IMG/VR virus record: IMGVR_UViG_3300045738_000546
Span: 1-22,446 of that record
Length of the DNA: 22,446 nt
Direction: 5' to 3' (one strand)
DNA from: a virus
The number at the start of each line of letters is the position of its first letter. The stretch's first letter is position 1. The notes below the pieces were generated by a model that was not told the DNA's origin, did not search any database, and saw nothing but the letters and a program-made list of their open reading frames with translations. The translations under genes and the position numbers were made by a program. Positions 1 to 13,882 of this stretch are shown here, in pieces.

Positions 1-1743
1 TTCAGTTTTATGTCCATATTTCTTTAGACTCCTTATTACTTTTTCGTATTCATTGATTAACGTCTCTGTTTCTGCAGTCACTGACTGCCTTTTCATAGCT
101 TCATATGTATTGATTAAAGATTCTACGCTATTTATTTTACCAAATCTATTTATAATACAGAGTGTATCTTTAAATGCATCATTTACATGGTAAAATGACA
201 TACGTTTCCAAAATAATCCTAAATTAGTAAGATAATCACTTTGATGATTTTCAATGTCATAAACAACATTTATCTCATATTTAAAATATGAAGATATCTT
301 ATCTTCAACACATTTATCGATAAATTCTTTATTTAAAGATTTACCATAAAAAGCTACAAGCATTCTTTTTATTCTTGTACTTCTATCCATACAGGATTTA
401 ATAATATAATACTTTTTTATAGTATCTTTAGAATTTACTACATTTGTTTCTTCTGATTCTATTGAAGCTCCAGTTACTCTATGTTTATATTTCCCAGTAT
501 GAGTCATATTATCATAGTGTAATTGTCTTTTTATTTCTAAAGGTGCTAAATATTTACAATATAAATTTATTGCATAATTAGCCTCATTTAATAAACTATC
601 TACCATTTCATTACCATTAATCCATTGATAAAAATTATTAATTAATGTAGATAATGAAAATAAAATAGTTTTATTTATATCATGTCCTTCTATTCGTGAT
701 AGTTCTTGATCAACACTAGACATTATTTCTCTTGTTGTAAAATAAGTTTGAGTACCATCTTCACTTGTATTTGGAATAACAAATAAAGTTCTAGTACTAG
801 CCCAGGGTAAGATAGAAAATTCAGATTGAGAATAATTTCTTCTATCATCTTTTCTTTCATTAGTTTCCATTTGATGTGTTTGAAAATATGAATATTGTTT
901 ACTATCAAATACTTTTAATATCTTTTCTGAAAGACGAGGTTTAATATTATTTATTCTTTTGAATACTTCTGATAAACAATAAATATCATTAGTAACTGAT
1001 CCAGTATTTATTTTAAATAAATTAGTATTTATAAATTCTTTAAATAAAATAGGATCATTTATTGATTTTTTATAAATAATAGATTGTATTACTGATGTTA
1101 AAAACTCTTTAGTAATATTTTCTGATCCTGTTAATCCATTTGTTACTCTATTTATTATTGTAGAATGATTCAAATTCCAAAATGGTGAACGAACATTCCA
1201 AGTATTTAAGAACGAGTGTAATGTTTTTAGATACATAATTGGATTACCTTCTGATTTCCATTTATTAAGATCATTATCATATCCACCTAAACAAGGTTCT
1301 GTTCCAGAGATATGTGGATGCCAAGCAGGTGTCTCTGCTGCAAAATCAAAATGTGTAGAATCTTTATCATCATATAAAGAATTATAGAATTTAACATTTC
1401 TATTCTTTTCTATACGAACATATATCTTACCAAGATGATGAATCTTTCTTGCTCTTAATCTTGGAATACCCATATTAAATATAAGAGCAATATCATCCTT
1501 GCCCCATACATCATGAACATATCCATCTACAGCAACTAATCCAAATACTTCATTTGAATTTGATATCATTGCTCTAAGTATTTTCCAATATTTAGTATCC
1601 ATACTTTTCATTCTAAAAACCTTTAAAAAAGTTCTTTTTAATCTACTATCAAAAGATTTAACTTCTGTTTTAAAAGGTAATCCAGATACAGATGTTACAT
1701 CTCCCATCTTAGCTGGAAAGGTTATTCCAATATTATTAACCAT
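1..1743 (-). CDS. E2 ubiquitin-conjugating-like large protein (partial, C-terminus beyond window)
   Basis: Open for 581 codons from ATG 1743 to the window edge with no stop, so it is partial. The start is set by AAGGAG five bases upstream. Residues 142-151 read HPHISGTEPC, followed by LGG. E2 enzymes carry an HPN motif about ten residues before the catalytic Cys; here H142-P-H144 precedes C151 by nine, with Asn replaced by His. W162 and a helix-like stretch (about 169-182) ending before RSPFW resemble the region after the E2 cysteine. The upstream 80 or so residues contain predicted strands that could form the E2 sheet. About 430 further residues are unlike anything I recognise, with no Rossmann GxGxxG. 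The immediate upstream gene encodes a ubiquitin-like protein in the same operon, which supports the reading. The catalytic role is inference; a structural or RNA-binding phage protein is the alternative. Confidence 0.55.
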   Translation of the reverse strand, partial: MVNNIGITFPAKMGDVTSVSGLPFKTEVKSFDSRLKRTFLKVFRMKSMDTKYWKILRAMISNSNEVFGLVAVDGYVHDVWGKDDIALIFNMGIPRLRARKIHHLGKIYVRIEKNRNVKFYNSLYDDKDSTHFDFAAETPAWHPHISGTEPCLGGYDNDLNKWKSEGNPIMYLKTLHSFLNTWNVRSPFWNLNHSTIINRVTNGLTGSENITKEFLTSVIQSIIYKKSINDPILFKEFINTNLFKINTGSVTNDIYCLSEVFKRINNIKPRLSEKILKVFDSKQYSYFQTHQMETNERKDDRRNYSQSEFSILPWASTRTLFVIPNTSEDGTQTYFTTREIMSSVDQELSRIEGHDINKTILFSLSTLINNFYQWINGNEMVDSLLNEANYAINLYCKYLAPLEIKRQLHYDNMTHTGKYKHRVTGASIESEETNVVNSKDTIKKYYIIKSCMDRSTRIKRMLVAFYGKSLNKEFIDKCVEDKISSYFKYEINVVYDIENHQSDYLTNLGLFWKRMSFYHVNDAFKDTLCIINRFGKINSVESLINTYEAMKRQSVTAETETLINEYEKVIRSLKKYGHKTE

Positions 1744-2925: not shown

Positions 2926-3272
2926 TAGATAAGTCCTTCATCTTCCCATTTAATCATTTTATCTAATACATCTTGAACAGAAATTTCATCACCTTTATAT
3001 GGTATTTTACAAGTACTCATAGATTTTAACATTTTTCCTTGTATTTTTACCACTTTTCCAATTTTATTAACTGTCCATTCATCTTTAATCTTATACTTTG
3101 CATCAATATTTATAAGACTTTGACGAAATTCTATTAAATCCTTCTGCATTATTTTCATATCTGTTATCTTTTTTTGCAGCTCTTCAATATCATAAGCATT
3201 ATCATAATGTTTATTAATTATCCATAGACCAAATAATGCTATAGTCATTAATAAGATAGTGTTAATTATCAT
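2925..3272 (-). CDS. N-terminally membrane-anchored coiled-coil protein
   Basis: 115 residues from ATG 3272, which overlaps the upstream stop as ATGA and follows GAGAGG. Residues 1-19 form a hydrophobic signal-anchor (MIINTILLMTIALFGLWII). Residues 29-60 (IEELQKKITDMKIMQKDL...) have heptad-like spacing of a coiled coil. The remaining C-terminal domain is charged with a possible short beta region (WTVNKIGKVVKIQGK). The layout is that of a spanin-like or membrane-tethered phage protein, but it is far from the lysis genes and no lipobox is present, so function stays open. Confidence 0.6.
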   Translation of the reverse strand: MIINTILLMTIALFGLWIINKHYDNAYDIEELQKKITDMKIMQKDLIEFRQSLINIDAKYKIKDEWTVNKIGKVVKIQGKMLKSMSTCKIPYKGDEISVQDVLDKMIKWEDEGLI

Positions 3273-3613
3273 TTAAATTTCCTCTCAGTTTTAATTGATT
3301 TTAAACCATAAACAGGTTTATACACTTTCCTATATTCTTCAGCTAATACGTTATGTCTATAATCATACATATCTTTATCACGTAGATAAGGATATTCATT
3401 AAACAATGATCTACATATTCTTCTAATAGAACTTGAAGAACTTATCTTATCTTTATAATAAGGACTTCCATAAACATATAAAAACTGAGACATACTTATC
3501 CCTAGATAATGTAATTCTCCTTCCCAGATCATAGTTTCTAAAAGTTTATAGCTTTTTCTTGTTTCAGGTTTAGCTTTGAGTAACCTGAGTACTCTTTCTT
3601 TTAGCTTTCTCAT
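3269..3613 (-). CDS. Phage winged-helix-like small protein (putative regulator or replication accessory)
   Basis: 114 residues from ATG 3613 with AAAGGAG upstream; first gene of the left-arm operon. The pattern KPETRKSYKLLETMIW ... SSSSIRRICRSLFNEYPYLR resembles a widespread family of small phage proteins (TR-x-SD-x-x-L...vW ... sI-x-R-x-RR-x-x-Q-x-x-P-x-L) predicted to adopt a winged helix. The C-terminus (YKPVYGLKSIKTERKFK) is basic, as expected for a nucleic-acid binder. Which target it binds cannot be read from the sequence. The family resemblance is from memory of its pattern, so DNA-binding is inference. Confidence 0.55.
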   Translation of the reverse strand: MRKLKERVLRLLKAKPETRKSYKLLETMIWEGELHYLGISMSQFLYVYGSPYYKDKISSSSSIRRICRSLFNEYPYLRDKDMYDYRHNVLAEEYRKVYKPVYGLKSIKTERKFK

Positions 3614-3650
3614 CAGCTTATCTCCTTTTTAAGGGTTATTGAAAATTTAT

Positions 3651-3693
3651 AGAGGAGAAGGCCAGCCAGCCTCTCCTTAGAGTTAACTCCTCT
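3651..3693 (-). promoter_or_regulatory. GC-rich nested hairpin upstream of the left-arm operon
   Basis: AGGAGA (3653-3658) pairs with TCTCCT (3672-3677), and GGC (3660-3662) with GCC (3669-3671) closes a hexaloop. An alternative outer pairing joins AGAGGAG (3651-3657) to CTCCTCT (3687-3693). GAGTTAACTC (3680-3689) is itself a palindrome. On the minus strand the hairpin is followed by CTATAAATTTT rather than a clean U-run. It may therefore be an attenuator or processing site between the noncoding RNA and the operon rather than a strong terminator. Confidence 0.4.
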
Positions 3694-3700
3694 AGAATTA

Positions 3701-4938
3701 TTGGGCGGTAACCAGTGCGTGGATGTATTATCTGGTATTCAATACGTGTCATGACACAGGAGTTGCTACTCTGCGCAACCGCCCAAAGATATCCCAGTGG
3801 TATGAACAGGTGAAAATATTACACAAAATCCTGCAGAGGTCTTCGCAGATACTCCATCACTGGGAATTATTGGGGCGAGAATGTTATATCCATTCATTTA
3901 AGTCTACAGTCTTTCACTGCTCTTTCGTGTATACCTTGAGGGCTTGTTTTAATGTGCACTTCTCTCTGGCATAAACCGTCCCATTTAAATAATATATAGG
4001 AGTAAATAAGATGTCCTGTTAGAGGCTATACATTCTTTGCATGACTAAAGAAAATATAACTTAAGTAACTTGTGTCTTACTTACTCCTAATGTTTAGCGG
4101 GAATTTTAACTCATCTATAAGTAATTAAACTTATAACTATAGTCATGGCTCCCGCCACTCACCAATTTAATATTTTGGCACTCAAGTTCGTTCTACACTT
4201 GTAACGGGAGTATTATTCATACCACATCGGTACTAGTAATGAACGTCAATCCTTATCAATATTTATTACTCTGATAATAATCTACTCATCGATTAAATGA
4301 ATTATCATTTCATAATACTATATAAGTTGCGGGTTATCCTTTTGATTGATATGAGTCTGAGTGCCAATAGTTATAGGGCTATCTGTATTTGATACACTTA
4401 AGTCGGCTTACCTATAATATCTACGTTGTAAGCTACAAATAACCCTAATATTAGGGGAAAGATTCAAGAGATTCATATAGTTTTATTAAACTATCAGGAT
4501 GTAACATTATAAAACCTGCATCATATTAATATCTTTTATGAACCCATAATACCTATGAGTAATTTACTCATTTTCTGGTATTATTACACTTTCCCCTTAA
4601 ATTATTGACGAAGGAATGAGACCAATTACCCTTTCGGAGTTATCCACTTAATGGCTTTTAGCGTATCTGGCTAACACTCATTCCTATTACATTGGATCAC
4701 CTGGTATTTAATCATCGTTTCAGATGAGCAGGCACTGAGATAACAATGTAATGTCGTCAATTTAAATATTTGAGGTACCAGATATTTATCATTACTGGTT
4801 CGTTTGCTTATCCCTCTTTAGCTTCGTGTTTCTTTAATTGTGCATTATTCTTCCTTAATAATGGTTAAAATATAAACCCTATAGCCTGTACTAGCCTATA
4901 CGTTACTCTTATAGCGCCCTATAGTCTACCTGTACATT
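3701..4938 (-). ncRNA. Giant structured noncoding RNA (GOLLD/ROOL-size class or novel)
   Basis: About 1.24 kb without a credible gene and with very many inverted repeats. Main stems, as plus-strand positions: 3701-3709/3778-3786 (9 bp), 3792-3799/3858-3865 (8), 3997-4011/4075-4089 (15 with one wobble), 4095-4103/4149-4157 (9, two wobbles) enclosing 4116-4122/4129-4135 (7), 4272-4278/4301-4307 (7), 4371-4377/4411-4417 (7), 4477-4483/4488-4494 (7), 4546-4553/4577-4584 (8), 4612-4620/4677-4685 (9), 4686-4694/4744-4752 (9). Many smaller hairpins are nested inside. Pairs 4006/4080 and 4096/4156, inside helices, are A-C on the plus strand but U-G on the minus strand, so a minus-strand RNA is favoured. 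A minus-strand terminator ends just upstream of it. Exact ends are not known. GOLLD and ROOL are large phage-associated RNAs of unknown function; membership is only a guess. Confidence 0.65.
4877..4935 (-). promoter_or_regulatory. Duplicated T7/SP6-like promoter motif at the presumed 5' end of the large RNA
   Basis: On the minus strand, GTACAGGTAGACTATAGGG (4935-4917) and GTACAGGCTATAGGG (4891-4877) are near copies differing by a four-base insertion. The first ends ACTATAGGG, the same as the core and start of T7 promoters (CACTATAGGG), and its AGGT resembles the upstream part of the SP6 promoter. Both lie just after the terminator at 4939-4968, where a promoter for the large RNA would be expected. 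No single-subunit RNA polymerase gene is visible in the window, so the call is tentative. The alternative is paired RNA structure, since TATAG/CTATA can also pair here. Confidence 0.35.
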
Positions 4939-4968
4939 AAAAAAGATACCCCCGTTAGGGAGTATCTT
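4939..4968 (-). terminator. Rho-independent terminator of the 5353-4982 gene
   Basis: AAGATAC (4943-4949) pairs with GTATCTT (4962-4968), and CCC/GGG closes a four-base loop. The single C/A opposition at 4950/4961 becomes a U-G wobble on the minus strand. On that strand the stem is followed by six U (4944-4939). It lies 14 bases past the stop of the minus-strand gene, the expected place, and separates that gene from the large RNA. Confidence 0.88.
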
Positions 4969-4981
4969 AGTCGAAGCAGTC

Positions 4982-5353
4982 TTAGAAGCTGATGGCATCT
5001 CGGATGACAACAGGGTAGAAGACTGCGCTTATCGCTTCGGGCTGTGTACCGTCAGCACTTTCGTCGAAAGTGATAGGTTCACCGACCAAGCGGTAATCGA
5101 CGCCATCAACAACCTTGAGAGGTTGCTTCTTCGTCAGGGACGTAGAAACAATCTCAGCAACTTTCTTCGCTGTGATAACAGTGGGGAAAGTGCGATCAAG
5201 TTGAGTGCTGGTGACTCGTAAATTACGAGTGTAGAGGGTATTGCCCTCTTCATCTCGTTCCTTTATGAAGTCACCCACTCTGTTGGTGGCTCCTTTGGAA
5301 GTATTACCAAACTTGGCAGAACTGACGAGCTTGGTCTTGACTGATTTAGCCAT
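4982..5353 (-). CDS. Hypothetical protein, GC-rich single-gene cassette
   Basis: 123 residues from ATG 5353 with GAGGT nine bases upstream. The in-frame extension to 5458 is rejected because it would cross the control region and has no SD. The N-terminus is basic (MAKSVKTKLVSSAKFGNTSKG); the rest is mixed strand/helix with a hydrophobic end (ISAVFYPVVIRDAISF). No motif recognised; a small nucleic-acid-binding or structural role is possible but unproven. Sampled 60-base lines are near 52% G+C, against about 22-30% in the left arm and about 40% in the right arm, so base composition is unlike its neighbours. It has its own promoter region and terminator, consistent with a highly expressed or separately acquired moron-like gene. 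Confidence 0.7.
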   Translation of the reverse strand: MAKSVKTKLVSSAKFGNTSKGATNRVGDFIKERDEEGNTLYTRNLRVTSTQLDRTFPTVITAKKVAEIVSTSLTKKQPLKVVDGVDYRLVGEPITFDESADGTQPEAISAVFYPVVIRDAISF

Positions 5354-5384
5354 AATGTACCTCATTATGTAAATTAGGAAAGAT

Positions 5385-5408
5385 ATCATACCATGGGTAT
5401 GGTATAAT
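5385..5408. promoter_or_regulatory. Overlapping divergent extended -10 promoters
   Basis: Minus strand: TGGTATGAT at 5393-5385 (extended -10) would start transcription near 5378, leaving about 25 bases of leader before ATG 5353. Plus strand: TGGTATAAT at 5400-5408 would start near 5415 and read rightward. The two are inverted copies six bases apart, so each -10 lies close to the other's spacer or -35 region. No good -35 hexamer is seen for either, consistent with extended -10 promoters. Start sites are inferred. Confidence 0.5.
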
Positions 5409-6195: not shown

Positions 6196-6438
6196 ATGAT
6201 AGAGGTTTTTGCCGAATACGGTGCGATTGGAGTCATGATCATACTATTTGGTGGGCAGATAATGTTTCTACAGAAGAGGTTGATGACAAAACTAGATGAT
6301 ATTGAGGATATTTCCATCAAATTGATAGATAGGTGGAATCGTTCTGATGAGACTCGTGATCGAAGACATGAAGACATGGTAAAAGAGTTAAATAATGTTA
6401 CAGATGACCTGAACTACTTAAAAGGAAAGATTAAATAA
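6196..6438 (+). CDS. Small membrane-anchored coiled-coil protein (putative holin or spanin)
   Basis: 80 residues from ATG 6196 with AAGAGG upstream. Residues 9-27 form a transmembrane helix (GAIGVMIILFGGQIMFLQ). The rest is a charged amphipathic helix (KLDDIEDISIKLIDRW ... MVKELNNVTDDLNYLKGKIK) that would form a coiled coil. The stop overlaps the ATG of the endolysin gene. Phage genes of this shape directly before an endolysin are commonly holins or inner-membrane spanins, which time or complete lysis. The specific role is inferred from position. Confidence 0.6.
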   Translation: MIEVFAEYGAIGVMIILFGGQIMFLQKRLMTKLDDIEDISIKLIDRWNRSDETRDRRHEDMVKELNNVTDDLNYLKGKIK

Positions 6439-6830
6439 TGCCTAGATTTAGCACTAAGAGTAAAATGCAGTTGCATACATGTGATGATAGACTGAAAGAA
6501 CTGTTTAATAAAGTTGTCAAAGACTTTGATTGTACAGTTATCGAAGGATATAGGGGTAAAACTAAACAGAATTTAGCATATAAGAGAGGAAATAGCAAAT
6601 TAAGGTTCCCAAGGGGAAGGCATAATAGGATGCCGAGTGTTGCTGTTGATGTAATCCCTTATCCTATAGATTGGAAAGATAGGGATAGAATGCATTATTT
6701 TGCGGGATATGTCCTTGGAATCGCCAGGACAATGGGTTTAAATATTCGTTGGGGCGGGGACTGGGATCAAGATACAAAAACCAAAGATAATAAATTTGAT
6801 GATCTTGTACACTTTGAAATAAAGGAATAG
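6438..6830 (+). CDS. M15-family peptidase endolysin
   Basis: 130 residues, a typical length for single-domain M15C endolysins, which cut the peptide stems of peptidoglycan. Expected Zn ligands and catalytic acid are all present: H62 in GRHNRMPSVAVD, D71 in AVDVIPYP, and D122/H125 in DLVHFE near the C-terminus. The EGYR (36-39) and RWGGDWD (104-110) motifs are also typical. Known M15 enzymes usually read SxHxxGxAxD here; this one has R in place of S before His and MPSVAVD after it, but spacing is kept. It overlaps the membrane-protein gene and is followed at once by a lysine-rich peptide gene. Role: release of progeny at the end of infection. Confidence 0.87.
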   Translation: MPRFSTKSKMQLHTCDDRLKELFNKVVKDFDCTVIEGYRGKTKQNLAYKRGNSKLRFPRGRHNRMPSVAVDVIPYPIDWKDRDRMHYFAGYVLGIARTMGLNIRWGGDWDQDTKTKDNKFDDLVHFEIKE

Positions 6831-6940: not shown

Positions 6941-7741
6941 GTGAGATACGAGTTAGTATCTGGAAAAAAATACCCAGTCTATTCGCAGAAAGAGGCGGAT
7001 GATCTGGGTTTGTCGTATAAGCACCCTTTTGATGTTCCAGAGGGGGAGTATGGTGTCTCATCTGATGATGAAGTATCCTTATGTCTAAAAAGGAGTCAGA
7101 TGAAGGGGGGAACCTTTAAGGTAAAGTATCCTTGGGGGCCGTCATTCGTACGTTCTGGTGAGGATGATATAAAATCAGTAGGAAGAATTAATAACTATAC
7201 CGAGAGTGGTAAAAATAATCGTGGTAAGTTTGTGTCAAAGAGTGATAACTTTAAGAAGTTAGCACATCTTATGGCACAACCTGGTATGACAAAGAAAGCT
7301 GCTATTAGGCTAGTCTTTGGGTATATGCCTGATGGTAAACGATATTCACTAAATAAGACGATGAGAATGGAGGTCTTTAGAAACATGGTAAATGATGAGT
7401 TAGATAAAATAGTCGAGCAATTTCCAATAGGTAAGATGGATACAGCTAGGGCTCTAGCTGCAGTACTAGATAGAGCTATGGATTGGGATGGGGATAAGAT
7501 GGGTAAGGATGGTGACTCAAAAATAGCAGTATCCGTATTAGATAAACTAATGGATATGAATGATATGAAGAGTAGGGGTAAGATTATTACTACCCATCAG
7601 ATAGAAGCTTCTACTGTAGAGCATACTATTGCTGATATTCAAGAGAAAAAGAAACTTTTTAAGGCAACACAGATAGAGGAGACACATGGGTTGGAACAGA
7701 CAGCAGAAAAAAAAGAAGAAAGTAATAAAGAGGAGGCGTAA
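6941..7741 (+). CDS. terS: Terminase small subunit (putative)
   Basis: 266 residues from GTG 6941. The assignment rests mainly on position: its stop overlaps the start of the large terminase (TAATG). The N-terminal 95 residues are an extra domain (PVYSQKEADDLGLSY ... YPWGPSFVRSG). The middle (residues about 105-205) is helical, with a segment AQPGMTKKAAIRLVFGYMP that could be a helix-turn-helix. The C-terminal tail is charged and coiled-coil-like, as in oligomeric small terminases. Its job would be to recognise the packaging site and load the motor. It is longer than many small terminases (140-200 residues). SD spacing is loose (GAGGT about 12 bases upstream). Confidence 0.55.
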   Translation: MRYELVSGKKYPVYSQKEADDLGLSYKHPFDVPEGEYGVSSDDEVSLCLKRSQMKGGTFKVKYPWGPSFVRSGEDDIKSVGRINNYTESGKNNRGKFVSKSDNFKKLAHLMAQPGMTKKAAIRLVFGYMPDGKRYSLNKTMRMEVFRNMVNDELDKIVEQFPIGKMDTARALAAVLDRAMDWDGDKMGKDGDSKIAVSVLDKLMDMNDMKSRGKIITTHQIEASTVEHTIADIQEKKKLFKATQIEETHGLEQTAEKKEESNKEEA

Positions 7742-9279
7742 TGGGGGCGATAGTCCAAAGAGGACTAGAAAACAGAAATACTGATTACGAATATTCGTAT
7801 ACTCTTGATAAAGAGAAGAAAGAGTTTCAGCGTGATATTGGTTGGTTTGGGAAATATTGTTTTCCTACAGCATTAGCCAAGGATACTCCGTCTTTCCATA
7901 GAGATATATATAAGAATTTAAAGAATGATGAGACGAAACGTGTTTTAATAGCCGCACCCAGGGGAACCGCTAAGAGTACGGTGTGTTCTTTGATCTTTCC
8001 TTTGTATAAGATAGCCTATAAGAAGCCAGATGAAGACCTATTTATTGTTGTTGTCTCGGAGTCTCAGGCTCAGTCAGTAAACTTCTTATCTAGAATAAAA
8101 TATCACTTAGAGCATAGTGACAATTTTAAGCATATATTCGGAGATTTTAGTTCAGCTACATCTAAGCGATGGACTGGTGCAGATATTATATTAAAGAATG
8201 GCACCCGTATTGTTGCTGTTGGTACTGGACAGAGGGTTCGTGGATTTATTGAGGGTGATACGAGACCTAATATTATTATTGTTGATGATTTTGAGTCAGA
8301 ATTGAATGCTTTTACTCCAGAGGGTAGGACAAAAAATAGGAAGTGGATGACCGAGGCTGTGATACCTTCGCTTTCTGACGATGGTAGAATAATTATGATT
8401 GGAACTGTTATATCTGAAGATTGTTTCTTATATTGGGCTAAAGATAGTCCTGCTTGGGAAACTCTTTGGTACAGTATCTGGGATGAGGATGAAAAGAGTA
8501 TATGGCCTGAGAGATTCCCTAAGAAGAGAATTCTTCAGATAAAGAGCGAATTTGAGAGTGTTGGTAATATTAATGGATTCTATCAGGAGTACATGAATAT
8601 TGCACAGTCTCCAGACAATGCTCCATTTAAGCCAGAATATATAAAGTTGCATCATTATGATTTTGAAAAAGTTAATAACCAACCCTGTTTGGTTAGGAGT
8701 GTCGCAGATGAAAAGAAAATTATACCAGTCGAACTCTATACTGGGGTTGATCCTGCATCTAGTCTTAGTGCCCGTGCTGACTTTTTTGTTATTGCTACCA
8801 TTGCTATTGATGCTGATAATAATAAGTATGTTGTCGATATTTTTAGGGAAAGGCTCGATCCTGCGAAACAACCTCAGAAGATTATTGATATTTTTGAGAG
8901 ATACCATCCAAAAAGAATGAAAATTGAAACTGTTGCATATCAAGAAGCGTTAAGAAGTGCAACTAGAGCATTAATGCTTGAAAAGAATTTATATATCCCT
9001 GGATTAGAGACAGGTGTAAAACCAAGGAACCGAAAGAGTGAAAGATTGTTATCATTAGTACCAGCATTCGCTAAGGGACAATTTTTCTTTAGGCCACAAG
9101 ACTTAACTGCTCAGCAAGAGTTCTTGTCATACCCCAGGGGAAAAAATGATGATGTCATGGATGCGATATGGACTGCTCTTGAAGGATCAAGACCGTGTAG
9201 GATAAAAAAGGATGATTTTGATCCATCAAAAGAAGTTGAGAAAAAAAGTAATAAAATACTTGACTGGTTAACCATGTAG
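7741..9279 (+). CDS. terL: Terminase large subunit (packaging ATPase and nuclease)
   Basis: 512 residues, normal for the family. The ATPase domain has Walker A APRGTAKST (72-80) and Walker B NIIIVDDFES (177-186, acidic D182/D183), with the coupling region around MIGTVIS (219-225). The RNase-H-like nuclease domain has its three acidic sites in order: D337 in TGVDPAS, E396 in KIET, and D470/D471 plus D474 in KNDDVMDA. It acts at the portal vertex to translocate and cut concatemeric DNA. The next gene is the portal, 13 bases on. All catalytic residues appear intact. Confidence 0.95.
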   Translation: MGAIVQRGLENRNTDYEYSYTLDKEKKEFQRDIGWFGKYCFPTALAKDTPSFHRDIYKNLKNDETKRVLIAAPRGTAKSTVCSLIFPLYKIAYKKPDEDLFIVVVSESQAQSVNFLSRIKYHLEHSDNFKHIFGDFSSATSKRWTGADIILKNGTRIVAVGTGQRVRGFIEGDTRPNIIIVDDFESELNAFTPEGRTKNRKWMTEAVIPSLSDDGRIIMIGTVISEDCFLYWAKDSPAWETLWYSIWDEDEKSIWPERFPKKRILQIKSEFESVGNINGFYQEYMNIAQSPDNAPFKPEYIKLHHYDFEKVNNQPCLVRSVADEKKIIPVELYTGVDPASSLSARADFFVIATIAIDADNNKYVVDIFRERLDPAKQPQKIIDIFERYHPKRMKIETVAYQEALRSATRALMLEKNLYIPGLETGVKPRNRKSERLLSLVPAFAKGQFFFRPQDLTAQQEFLSYPRGKNDDVMDAIWTALEGSRPCRIKKDDFDPSKEVEKKSNKILDWLTM

Positions 9280-9292
9280 GTTGTAATATTAA

Positions 9293-11485
9293 ATGATGGC
9301 TTATAACTCCAAATCACAGAAATCGGGCAAAAAACTCGTTGAGGAAACTCATAGTCTATGGAAGACTTACTCTAAGAAGCGTGAAACTTGGGCACACCAT
9401 GCTCAGGAAGACCGTGAATTTAGATTAGGGAAACAATGGACTTCGGATCAAAAGCGAATTTTAGAAGAGCGAGGACAAGCAGCTATTGTTGTCAATCGTA
9501 TACATCCAGCAGTAGAAGCAGCTAAGGCTCTTATAACTGCAAATAAACCTCAATTCAGAGTATCTCCGAGAGAAGATAGCGATAACAAGGTGGCTCAGGC
9601 TATGAATGGTTTGTTAGAGTATATCTGGCAGATATCCGAAGGTAATGCCGTTTTAAGGAGAGTTGTTGATGATTACTATGTTACTGGACTTGGTTGTGCA
9701 CTTGCTTATATAGACCCAATGATGGACATGGGTAAGGGAGAAGTTTGTATACATGATATTGATCCTCTCGATGTTTATATAGACCCGAATTCTAGAAGTC
9801 CGCATGGAGATGATGCATCTAATGTTATAATATCAAGACTTTACACAAAAGAACAGGCCAAAGCATTATACCCAATGTATAAAAAGGCTATTGGTAACGC
9901 CTCTACAGAAGATTTTATGACAGATAGACCATCTACTGGGAGAGAGGATGATGGGGAAACAACTTGGCCCGAGACTCCAGAGGTAATGACAACAGCCAAT
10001 TTTGGTGATAGTGATGAGTACATCAGAGGATACGAAAGATACTTTCCTCTAATGATCGATTATTATAGGGTATTTGAGAGTATGACTGGTGATGAGGATT
10101 TGTTAGATGAAGATGAGTATAAAAAATATTTACAGCAGCCTGCTTGGATTATTCAGGGCCAGGTTGTCGCAGAGCCAGAGGAAGCTAAGGCTGCGATTGA
10201 TCAATTGCAGACTATATATCAACAAAAAGTTGAGCAGGGAAGAGAGCAGGGCAATTTAGAATTACCAGAGGAACCAGATATTCAAGAGATAACATTTGCT
10301 CAACTCGTAGAACAAGGAACTATAGAAGTAGTTACAGTACCGACTAAAAGAATTAAGCAATGTGTAGTCATGGGCGATAAACATTTATATTCTCGTATCC
10401 TCCCTATTGATAAGTATCCTATTGTGTTCTTTATGAACCAACATACCCGTACCCCCTATCCTATGTCAGATGTTCGTATGGTAAAGGGTATGCAGGAATA
10501 CATCAATAAAACGAGAAGTTTAATTATTGCCCATGCTACCACTAGTACGAATACAAAAATTTTAATACCATCAGGTTCGGTAGATATGAGGGAGTTCGAG
10601 CAGAAATGGGCCCAGCCTGGAGTAGCCATCGAGGTTGATTTTGATCAAGGGCAGCCAACACCCGTTCAGCCGACTCCCCTACCGAACGAATTGTATTCTA
10701 ATGAGAATACAGCAAAGAATGATATTGATCACCAATTAGGATTATACGAAATGCAGATGGGTAATTCTGCAGTTGCTCCTCATACATATAAGGCCACTGT
10801 GAGTCTAGATGAGTTTGGTCAGCGCAAGATGAAGAGTAAACTTGCCGATATAGAGGCTGGACTTAATAGATTGGGTCAGGTAATCATTCCTATGATGCAA
10901 CAATTATACACCACTCAGAAGATTGTTAGGCTTATTCAGCCTAATAATAGTATGAGTGAATATACTATTAATAAAAGAATGTACGATGATCATACTGGTG
11001 AGCTTAAAATAATAAATGATATAACAGTTGGAAAGTACGATGTAGTTGTAGTTACGGGGTCGACGATGCCAACTAACAGGATGGCTCAGCTAGAGATGTA
11101 TATGGATGCTTATGAAAAAGGTATTATTGATAAGCAAGAAGTTTTAAAGAAGACAGAGGTCTTCGACATGGAAGGGGTCATGCAGAGAACAGATTTGATA
11201 GAACAGTTAAAAGGCCAACTAGAGCAAGCTACTGAAACTATCAAGAGTATGCAAGGAGACTTGCAGACAAGAGAGCGTGAAATTTATCACGCCAGAATGA
11301 AAGCCGAAATCGAAAAAACGAAGTCCAATTTGAAGGGAACTGAAAATCGGGCAAAAATGTCTGGCACTCTATTTGAGAAACGCCTAGATGACGCTTTAGG
11401 GCAAGTTAAAAAAGATGTTGCGGAAGCAGCATCTAAAACAGGCTCACCTTCTTCAAGCCCTAAGAAGAAGCAGTCTAAAAAATAG
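9293..11485 (+). CDS. Portal protein, P22-like
   Basis: 730 residues, close to the usual size of P22-type portals (about 725). The N-terminal part reads VVNRIHPAVEAAKALITANKP followed by a sulfatase-like loop and LLEYIW, typical of this family; further on are DPLDVYIDPNS and an extended stem and crown region with PYPMSDVRMVKGMQEYINKT. The C-terminus (about 640-730) is a long charged coiled coil with a KKKQSKK tail, as in the barrel of P22 portals. It forms the dodecameric ring for DNA entry and exit. Start is ATG 9293 (a second ATG is at 9296) with only a weak upstream SD (TAGG). Confidence 0.88.
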   Translation: MMAYNSKSQKSGKKLVEETHSLWKTYSKKRETWAHHAQEDREFRLGKQWTSDQKRILEERGQAAIVVNRIHPAVEAAKALITANKPQFRVSPREDSDNKVAQAMNGLLEYIWQISEGNAVLRRVVDDYYVTGLGCALAYIDPMMDMGKGEVCIHDIDPLDVYIDPNSRSPHGDDASNVIISRLYTKEQAKALYPMYKKAIGNASTEDFMTDRPSTGREDDGETTWPETPEVMTTANFGDSDEYIRGYERYFPLMIDYYRVFESMTGDEDLLDEDEYKKYLQQPAWIIQGQVVAEPEEAKAAIDQLQTIYQQKVEQGREQGNLELPEEPDIQEITFAQLVEQGTIEVVTVPTKRIKQCVVMGDKHLYSRILPIDKYPIVFFMNQHTRTPYPMSDVRMVKGMQEYINKTRSLIIAHATTSTNTKILIPSGSVDMREFEQKWAQPGVAIEVDFDQGQPTPVQPTPLPNELYSNENTAKNDIDHQLGLYEMQMGNSAVAPHTYKATVSLDEFGQRKMKSKLADIEAGLNRLGQVIIPMMQQLYTTQKIVRLIQPNNSMSEYTINKRMYDDHTGELKIINDITVGKYDVVVVTGSTMPTNRMAQLEMYMDAYEKGIIDKQEVLKKTEVFDMEGVMQRTDLIEQLKGQLEQATETIKSMQGDLQTREREIYHARMKAEIEKTKSNLKGTENRAKMSGTLFEKRLDDALGQVKKDVAEAASKTGSPSSSPKKKQSKK

Positions 11486-12454: not shown

Positions 12455-13882
12455 ATGGCAAATCAATATAGTATATCCGCTGGTGGCGGTATGCAGTCAT
12501 CCTCGATTGATCATTCAAGACGAATGTACAATTTCGGGGAAAAAGTTGCTGAACTCGCTCCTAAACAGTCTCCATTCTTTACATATTTGTCTAAAGTAGC
12601 GAAGAAACCTACTGATGATCCTGTTTTTAAATTCTTAGAACAGCGTCATCAATGGCAGCGTCGTAATTTTGAAGTTAAAACAGCAATGACTACCTCCGCA
12701 CATGGTGGTACCGATGCTAACTTGAATCTTACTAACTTGCAGGTTGATTGTCTATATGATAAATATGGTAGGGTCGTAACCACAGCAACACTTCCGAACT
12801 TCATTCTAGAAGGACAAATGGTAGTGATTGAATGTGAATACGATGCTAACGGTAGTGACGCAGGCGTTGGGTCTGAAACTGGGGCTAAAGCATATTATAA
12901 AATTAACGCAAGTCCAGACGTAAGTAATTCTACTTATGCTGAGATTGACGGTACTTTTATAAAAGTTGTTTATAAGCCTACAGCTTCAGTAAGCGGTGAG
13001 ATCACAGAAGCTTCTGCTTCTAAATTGATCTTTCGTGCCGATGGCAAGGGTCAAATCGTTGGTTCAGCTTTTGCTGAGGGATCAACTGATCCAGAAGGAT
13101 GGAAAGATGAGTTCTATGATAGAGAAGGATATTGTCAGATTTTTAAGACGGCAATCTCTTTGTTTAGTGGAACTTCATTAGCTACCCGCTATCGTGGTGT
13201 ATCTAATGAGTACAAGCGAGTATGGCAAGAAAAGTTAATGGAACACAAGATGGATTTAGAACACGCAATGTTATTTGGCGTAGGTTCAGACGATTCCACA
13301 TCAACAGGGCCCGTAAGACGCTCATGGGGTATTGTACCCTATACAGAAGCTTATGGTAAGATTAAAACCTTTACCTATGCTTCCTCGTCTTATGATGACT
13401 TTATTGATGCAATGGAAGATGTCTTCTCACCTGAATCAGGTAATAGCGGAAATAAACTAGTCCTTGCTTCACGCAAAATCCTGTCTTACTTTAACAAACT
13501 TGGCGGAAGTTCTTTCTTAGGGAACACAATGGCACTTGGACACACAGCTACAACTAGCGGTGGTTCCAATGGTTTTCAACTAGATATTCAGAATGTAAAA
13601 GGTTCATTCGGACACAATGTAACACGAGTAAATACTCTTTACGGTGATTTACACTTGGTCGAGCAACCTTTATTCAGGGGTATGTGGGAAGACTATGCTA
13701 TCATGGTTGATCTAAAGAATGTAGCTTATCGTCCGTTAGCTGCTAATGGCACATCGAGAGATACGCATATTATCACTAATGTACAAAATAACAATGTTGA
13801 TGGACGGAAAGATCAAGTCTTGACCGAAGCTGGTCTAGAGATTTCTTTACCTGAAACTCATACCTTGTTAAAGTTCGCATAA
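12455..13882 (+). CDS. Major capsid protein
   Basis: 475 residues with a strong SD (AGGAG), directly after the scaffold. The N-terminal ELAPKQSPFFTYLSKV and VAKKPTDDPVFKFLEQRH are hallmarks of an HK97-fold capsid family common in environmental phages (DUF5309-like). Mid-protein RSWGIVPYTE and the C-terminal VDGRKDQVLTEAGLEISLPETH are also family-like. Residues about 100-205 may be an inserted beta domain (Ig-like or I-domain-like) exposed on the capsid. The gene is followed by a very stable hairpin, as expected for a highly expressed late gene. Confidence 0.87.
   Translation: MANQYSISAGGGMQSSSIDHSRRMYNFGEKVAELAPKQSPFFTYLSKVAKKPTDDPVFKFLEQRHQWQRRNFEVKTAMTTSAHGGTDANLNLTNLQVDCLYDKYGRVVTTATLPNFILEGQMVVIECEYDANGSDAGVGSETGAKAYYKINASPDVSNSTYAEIDGTFIKVVYKPTASVSGEITEASASKLIFRADGKGQIVGSAFAEGSTDPEGWKDEFYDREGYCQIFKTAISLFSGTSLATRYRGVSNEYKRVWQEKLMEHKMDLEHAMLFGVGSDDSTSTGPVRRSWGIVPYTEAYGKIKTFTYASSSYDDFIDAMEDVFSPESGNSGNKLVLASRKILSYFNKLGGSSFLGNTMALGHTATTSGGSNGFQLDIQNVKGSFGHNVTRVNTLYGDLHLVEQPLFRGMWEDYAIMVDLKNVAYRPLAANGTSRDTHIITNVQNNNVDGRKDQVLTEAGLEISLPETHTLLKFA

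Follow-up and report, generated by a model that had tools for sequence, protein, structure and literature searches.

A probable array of separately folded, exchangeable RNA modules in a gene-free region of an uncultivated tailed phage

Overview

The window analysed here, i.e. the whole 22,446-nt (22.4 kb) stretch of record IMGVR_UViG_3300045738_000546, belongs to an uncultivated tailed phage, likely of marine origin, and contains a gene-free stretch of about 1.3 kb whose minus strand carries an array of some ten independent RNA modules of 70-195 nt each, separated by short A/T-rich linkers and in most cases closed by a helix of their own of 6-14 bp. This structure, and the exchange of its modules between phages, is very likely. 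The wider reading, in which the array is a leftward chain of stand-alone, traded RNA modules acting in trans as an accessory of the phage, is given a probability of about 0.6 in the absence of expression data.

A first-pass annotation had described positions 3701-4938 as a large structured noncoding RNA, possibly of a new class, without a credible gene and leaning to the minus strand, and these claims held. None of the outcomes it had named as refuting, namely an intact reading frame, no covariation or folding at the level of shuffled sequence, came true. Its view of a single ornate giant RNA failed, as the region is a string of separate domains, and its extent has been corrected: on the minus strand, the RNA-bearing part begins nearer 4900 and ends nearer 3654. 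What it overlooked is the modular, exchangeable and horizontally transferred architecture, which outweighs length in importance.

Genome setting and anatomy of the array

Genes of the window are directed leftward to the left of about 5350 and rightward from 5909, and the RNA region is flanked by two leftward genes (4982-5350 and 3269-3613). Cultured relatives are remote, with TerL identities of about 25-27% in the best-listed matches and capsid identities of 24-28% in three records, marine hosts among them. Between the flanking genes (3614-4981) each reading frame is interrupted by 27-43 stop codons, and the longest open reading frame (83 aa, plus strand) has a single 18-aa tblastn match, which is explained by DNA identity in module I. 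No conserved reading frame indicative of a small protein gene was found in the window region or in the ~470-nt module L described below. When positions 3681-4938 were folded and compared with 60 dinucleotide shuffles, z-scores of -4.8 for the minus and -3.4 for the plus strand were obtained.

The features are listed in Table 1. Several module boundaries were set by eye, few sequences are available per module, and all of them come from metagenome contigs. The own folds of modules I, J and K are not significant singly. The individual helices that the first-pass annotation had quoted were confirmed as far as they were examined, which concerns only a subset of its twenty-odd stems: the 15-bp helix lies at 3997-4011/4075-4089, its 4006/4080 opposition is A.C on the plus strand and U.G on the minus strand, and module G has as its two arms the abutting stems at 4612-4685 and 4686-4752.

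Table 1. Coordinates of the RNA array, in leftward order, and of marker genes in the window
Feature	Position	Strand	Sequence and remarks
Intrinsic terminator of upstream leftward gene (ORF 4982-5350, minus)	4939..4966	-	GATACTCCCTAACGGGGGTATCTTTTTT; fold z -5.7; terminator scan positive
Promoter-like element and conserved 5' leader (inferred)	4884..4936	-	TGTACA-N18-TATAAG, then GTAACGTATAGGCTAGTACAGGC; kept in relatives, several of which have TATAAT
Module G	4605..4760	-	Closing helix TTGACGA/TCGTCAA round two abutting hairpins; fold z -3.5
Module F	4453..4597	-	Closing helix AGGGGAAAG/CTTTCCCCT
Module B	4371..4448	-	TTAGGGTTATTTG/CAGATAGCCCTATAA; fold z -3.3
Module CD	4175..4367	-	P1 TTGGCACTCA/TTGAGTGCCAA; conserved CAGACTNATATCARTC and CGAACTTGAG; 16 contigs; model R1
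Module E	4094..4165	-	GTGGCGGGAG ... TTCCCGC; fold z -4.7
Module H	3997..4089	-	15-bp closing helix; fold z -5.7 minus, -3.3 plus
Module I	3872..3989	-	ACGAAAGAGCAGTGAAA core; weaker closing helix
Module J	3793..3864	-	CCCAGTG/CACTGGG; own fold z -0.9
Module K	3703..3784	-	GGGCGGTT/..TTACCGCCC; 7-bp closing helix; fold z -1.5
3' hairpin	3654..3676	-	GGAGAGGCTGGCTGGCCTTCTCC; precedes first left-operon gene (3269-3613); from sequence and fold
Endolysin	6438-6830		
TerL	7741-9279		
Portal	9293-11485		
Major capsid	12455-13882		

Homologues, covariation and strand

A TerL scan over 2.9 million viral contigs yielded 80 loci, and the syntenic gaps of these loci match the array only in patches, which are mostly stretches closed by their own helix. 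The patterns of CD, G, F, B and E were then scanned for, which added further loci, many of them in phages with a TerL only 26-40% identical to that of the window; loci are cited here by L numbers. Altogether, seven of the modules (G, F, B, CD, E, I and J) were found in other uncultivated phages, where their neighbours differ, including phages with a TerL identity of only about 25-40%; for modules H and K no relative was detected among the loci searched. Module G is common to the window, L097, L098, L103 and L104, and module B to the window and L003/L051/L106, the match between window and L003 being broken only by an 18-nt insertion within the module. Module F is 91% identical to L097 over 101 nt, module E is 97% identical to L003/L051 over 74 nt, beyond which most of the flanking sequence is unrelated, and the core of module I recurs at L110 5409-5486 with 87.5% identity.

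The CD pattern 5'-TT(G/A)GCACTCAGACTNATATCARTC ... GAYTGACG ... CGAACTTGAGTGCYAA-3', or a close variant, occurs in 15 further contigs, and the CD model gives 17 matches in 16 contigs, without turning up a second copy in those of the fuller records that were searched. In an alignment of eight CD sequences 99% of the pair cells are standard and 7 of the 26 pairs show changes on both sides, a level of covariation attained by none of 500 shuffles, while structures slid along the alignment are only 27-41% paired; the result repeats on a model-fitted alignment with 15 distinct rows. Five of 20 pattern matches (L091-L093, L095 and L099) lack the 3' partner and were rejected as chance.

The closing helices of modules G, F, T and U vary in sequence between copies with the pairing kept (in F, compensation is seen in L097), apart from a mismatch in one copy of G and a poor helix in another. 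The closing helix of module L is also re-paired by compensatory change, whereas the two copies of J have the same closing helix and there is little variation in B and E; covariation is thus demonstrated solely for CD, G, F, L, T and U.

Module L, which is absent from the window, is a noncoding RNA of about 470 nt in L011, L016, L018, L020, L055, L110 and L116. It is noncoding in every array-strand frame, shows changes on both sides in 43 of 121 predicted pairs across five sequences, and matched no Rfam family in those of its loci that were scanned.

With regard to strand, the RNAalifold energy of the array strand was better than that of the reverse complement in all five alignments (for module L, -186 versus -158 kcal/mol, with 77 versus 17 G-U cells), and G-U counts favoured the array strand in four of the five. 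Moreover, wherever the strand of TerL is known, the pattern copies lie without exception on the other strand, i.e. on that of a leftward transcript.

A separate observation concerns module T (L084 array 662-780, L101, and L103 4615-4765 on the minus strand), which contains a GGTTCGAATCC stretch resembling a tRNA T-arm and has an 11-bp compensated closing helix, and in which ARAGORN finds no tRNA.

Insertion, replacement and reordering of modules

It has been possible to follow exchange between closely similar genomes. L058, L083, L086 and L100 are 97-100% identical up to the end of CD and then diverge in content; L083, L086 and L100 re-converge past the divergent part, and the L058 contig ends. 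Compared with L083, L100 carries one additional element of about 100 nt directly behind CD, and 103 nt of this element are 100% identical in L103, a phage whose TerL is 35% identical to that of the window. There the element stands between two leftward genes, after the stop of the one and before the ribosome-binding site of the other; although it falls within an open frame, it was read as intergenic, as protein homology starts only after the element. A single site has likewise been found in three states, being empty in L016, occupied by module J in L011 and occupied by another stem-closed module in L018. Module order also changes, G-F-B-CD-E in the window versus CD-F-G in L097 (89-98% identity per block), CD stands alone beside small ORFs in L084 and L094, and the copy of module I in L110 lies between two genes, far from the L110 array, with a different closing helix.

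Untuned BLAST blocks have a helix joining their two ends more often than random intervals do, with a combined p of ~4e-6, in which three CD blocks are non-independent. Assembly chimeras are unlikely, since the array of L003 is 99.9% identical across three independent samples.

Transcription setting and the variable zone

In most aligned relatives the terminator of the upstream gene is found in the same place, its stem differing in sequence with the pairing kept, and is followed by a conserved element consisting of a TATAAT-like box and GTTAGTACA/GCTAGTACAGG. This element (window 4884-4906, minus strand) reads GCGTATATTGTATAG..GCGTTAGTACACGTATA in one group and GTAACGCATAGGCTAGTACAGGCATA in another. 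It may be a phage-specific promoter or operator; a simple sigma-70 scan recognised no minus-strand promoter at 4884..4936, and the region holds four promoter-like sites, of which a single one is on the minus strand, a total not above the shuffle mean of 6.2. The array is inferred, from position and strand and from a promoter that is itself inferred, to be the first-transcribed and variable end of the leftward operon. At its other end, the terminator scan found no evident terminator in the 3' hairpin.

Several relatives hold small ORFs behind the leader, alongside RNA modules, and in other phages this variable zone holds small accessory genes. Two candidate modules were rejected as coding, namely L003 631-695 (also in L103), a small coding gene, and a conserved block in L003, L011, L018, L025, L026 and L034, which is an ORF of about 27 aa.

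Comparison with known RNAs and mobile cassettes

Rfam searches of the window and seven relatives returned nothing at E<=1, and those of 12 further relatives returned only one tRNA and chance-level matches. The claim that the region is neither GOLLD nor ROOL thus stands, the covariance models of GOLLD, ROOL and OLE having no match at E<=1 on either strand of the window and 19 relatives. Similarly, there was no Rfam covariance-model match to group I or II introns, known ribozymes or riboswitches in the window and the relatives scanned, ARAGORN finds neither tRNA nor tmRNA in the window, and BLAST against GenBank phages gave no match for the window region, the ~470-nt module or the L084 array. 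Pattern scans for CD and module L in 85,000 bacterial and archaeal genomes were also negative, so the host remains unidentified.

GOLLD and ROOL (and with them OLE) resemble the array as long structured noncoding RNAs, the first two phage- or prophage-associated; each is a single family, and to our knowledge the function of neither is known. The array differs from them in its lack of a covariance-model match and of a tRNA, and in its exchangeable stand-alone modules without a constant core beyond the short leader. The Vibrio phage ICP1 encodes a noncoding RNA of ~800 nt in a gene-free gap of ~1 kb at the start of its lysis cluster (PMC7567579). It is similar as a long noncoding transcript from a gene-free gap, the gap of the window also lying near an endolysin gene (transcription of the window being inferred), but modular exchange is not mentioned in the relevant passages of that paper; the evidence on sequence is indirect, a BLAST search of the phage collection with the window region having given no match.

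Also related are the promoter-early-stem-loop elements (PeSLs) of T4-like phages, which are short noncoding mobile cassettes of variable regions that mediate modular shuffling (Arbiol et al. 2010, cited in PMC4503421). The modules of the window are also noncoding exchangeable cassettes in a variable zone; however, they do not meet the PeSL definition of an early promoter plus a single stem-loop as the mobile unit, as modules here span 60-470 nt, mostly have several helices and share no visible promoter. Phages such as T4 also carry polycistronic clusters of tRNAs and stable RNAs that vary between phages, and the array is likewise a variable string of small RNAs; unlike these clusters, array loci lack ARAGORN tRNAs, the only one across 31 relatives being a tRNA-Met in L020.

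Both long phage RNAs (GOLLD, ROOL, ICP1) and mobile noncoding cassettes (T4 PeSLs) are already known. Because RNA modules that fold separately, follow one another in a chain and can be exchanged belong to neither group, this appears to be a new kind of arrangement, although only open-access literature was searched and an earlier description may have gone undetected. It offers roughly a dozen RNA families unrelated to one another, for which near-identical genomes provide natural knock-ins, knock-outs and swaps, so that the role of phage noncoding RNA can be tested module by module.

Proposed explanation and rival readings

In the proposed explanation, a promoter just past the terminator would start a minus-strand transcript at about 4900, which would fold into some ten self-contained RNA modules. 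Modules would move via recombination in the A/T-rich linkers, so that gain or loss of a single module would leave the others undisturbed. More weakly inferred are the release of modules by cleavage in A/U-rich linkers and their action in trans as accessory units of host takeover or counter-defence. Processing and such a role are guessed from where the modules lie, how variable they are and the fact that they are traded; the trans-acting function is a best guess with weak support that may well prove wrong, there being no data on target, processing or counter-defence.

Under one alternative to a chain of separate RNAs, the array would be one giant structural RNA of the GOLLD/ROOL type, for example an oligomeric cage, with the modules as swap-tolerant peripheral domains. 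Its similar size, phage setting and many stems are in favour, as is the fact that GOLLD itself is conserved in its 3' part and less so in its 5' part, and that GOLLD and ROOL form homo-oligomeric cages (PMC12286853). Nevertheless, it is unlikely: there is no Rfam match, no constant core is common to all arrays except the 5' leader, and modules are kept outside any large RNA, as seen for CD alone in L084 and L094, module I in L110 and the 103-nt element between genes in L103. Equally unlikely is a cis-acting leader, in which the array would be a long 5' UTR governing termination or translation of the leftward operon genes. The position of the array, preceded by the promoter-like element and followed by the ribosome-binding site of the first gene on the left, and the lack of a clear terminator at its 3' end, would fit, but module content and order vary freely ahead of the same downstream genes and module copies also precede unrelated genes.

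It remains possible that the modules are selfish mobile DNA or RNA elements whose fold serves their own movement without benefit to the phage. This view is supported by the clean L100 insertion with its 100% identical copy in a distant phage, by the empty and occupied site of L016 and L011, and by isolated copies between genes. On the other hand, the ends of the modules vary in sequence both from family to family and inside a family, with co-varying changes, which speaks against MITE-like elements; a shared end sequence is absent, and target duplication is not obvious, in L100/L083, the one clean pair available. Inspection of the arrays by eye showed no constant core-site sequence of the integron type. 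Furthermore, copies occur on the sense strand only, whereas random insertion should give both orientations, and conservation spans the whole fold rather than the ends alone.

The chain-of-modules reading can be taken further, to "RNA morons", an exchangeable library traded at one locus like small anti-defence genes, in which every module would act in trans as an RNA of its own, blocking or mimicking some component of the host, for example as a tRNA mimic (module T). This bolder version, taken as a whole, is speculative and more doubtful than the chain itself, and the T-arm-like stretch of module T is the sole hint of a possible target. If counter-defence or host-takeover RNAs were confirmed, phages would own an RNA counterpart of anti-defence gene islands.

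Further observations in the region and its relatives

The ORF of about 27 aa (L003 array 787-863, and L011, L018, L025, L026 and L034) encodes a MLLEYLLTIGLIVCLINIFILTKHYN-like, probably membrane peptide, and the lone tRNA-Met gene of L020 lies at 1027-1100 on the minus, leftward strand. In the upstream gene (4982-5350), coding DNA at 5101-5400 folds far beyond shuffles (z -9.6 plus, -6.6 minus), a signal exceeding that of every 300-nt stretch of the array. Finally, window 1-1743 (minus strand) encodes a 581-aa protein without Pfam or PHROG match, which is also present in the leftward operon of relatives.
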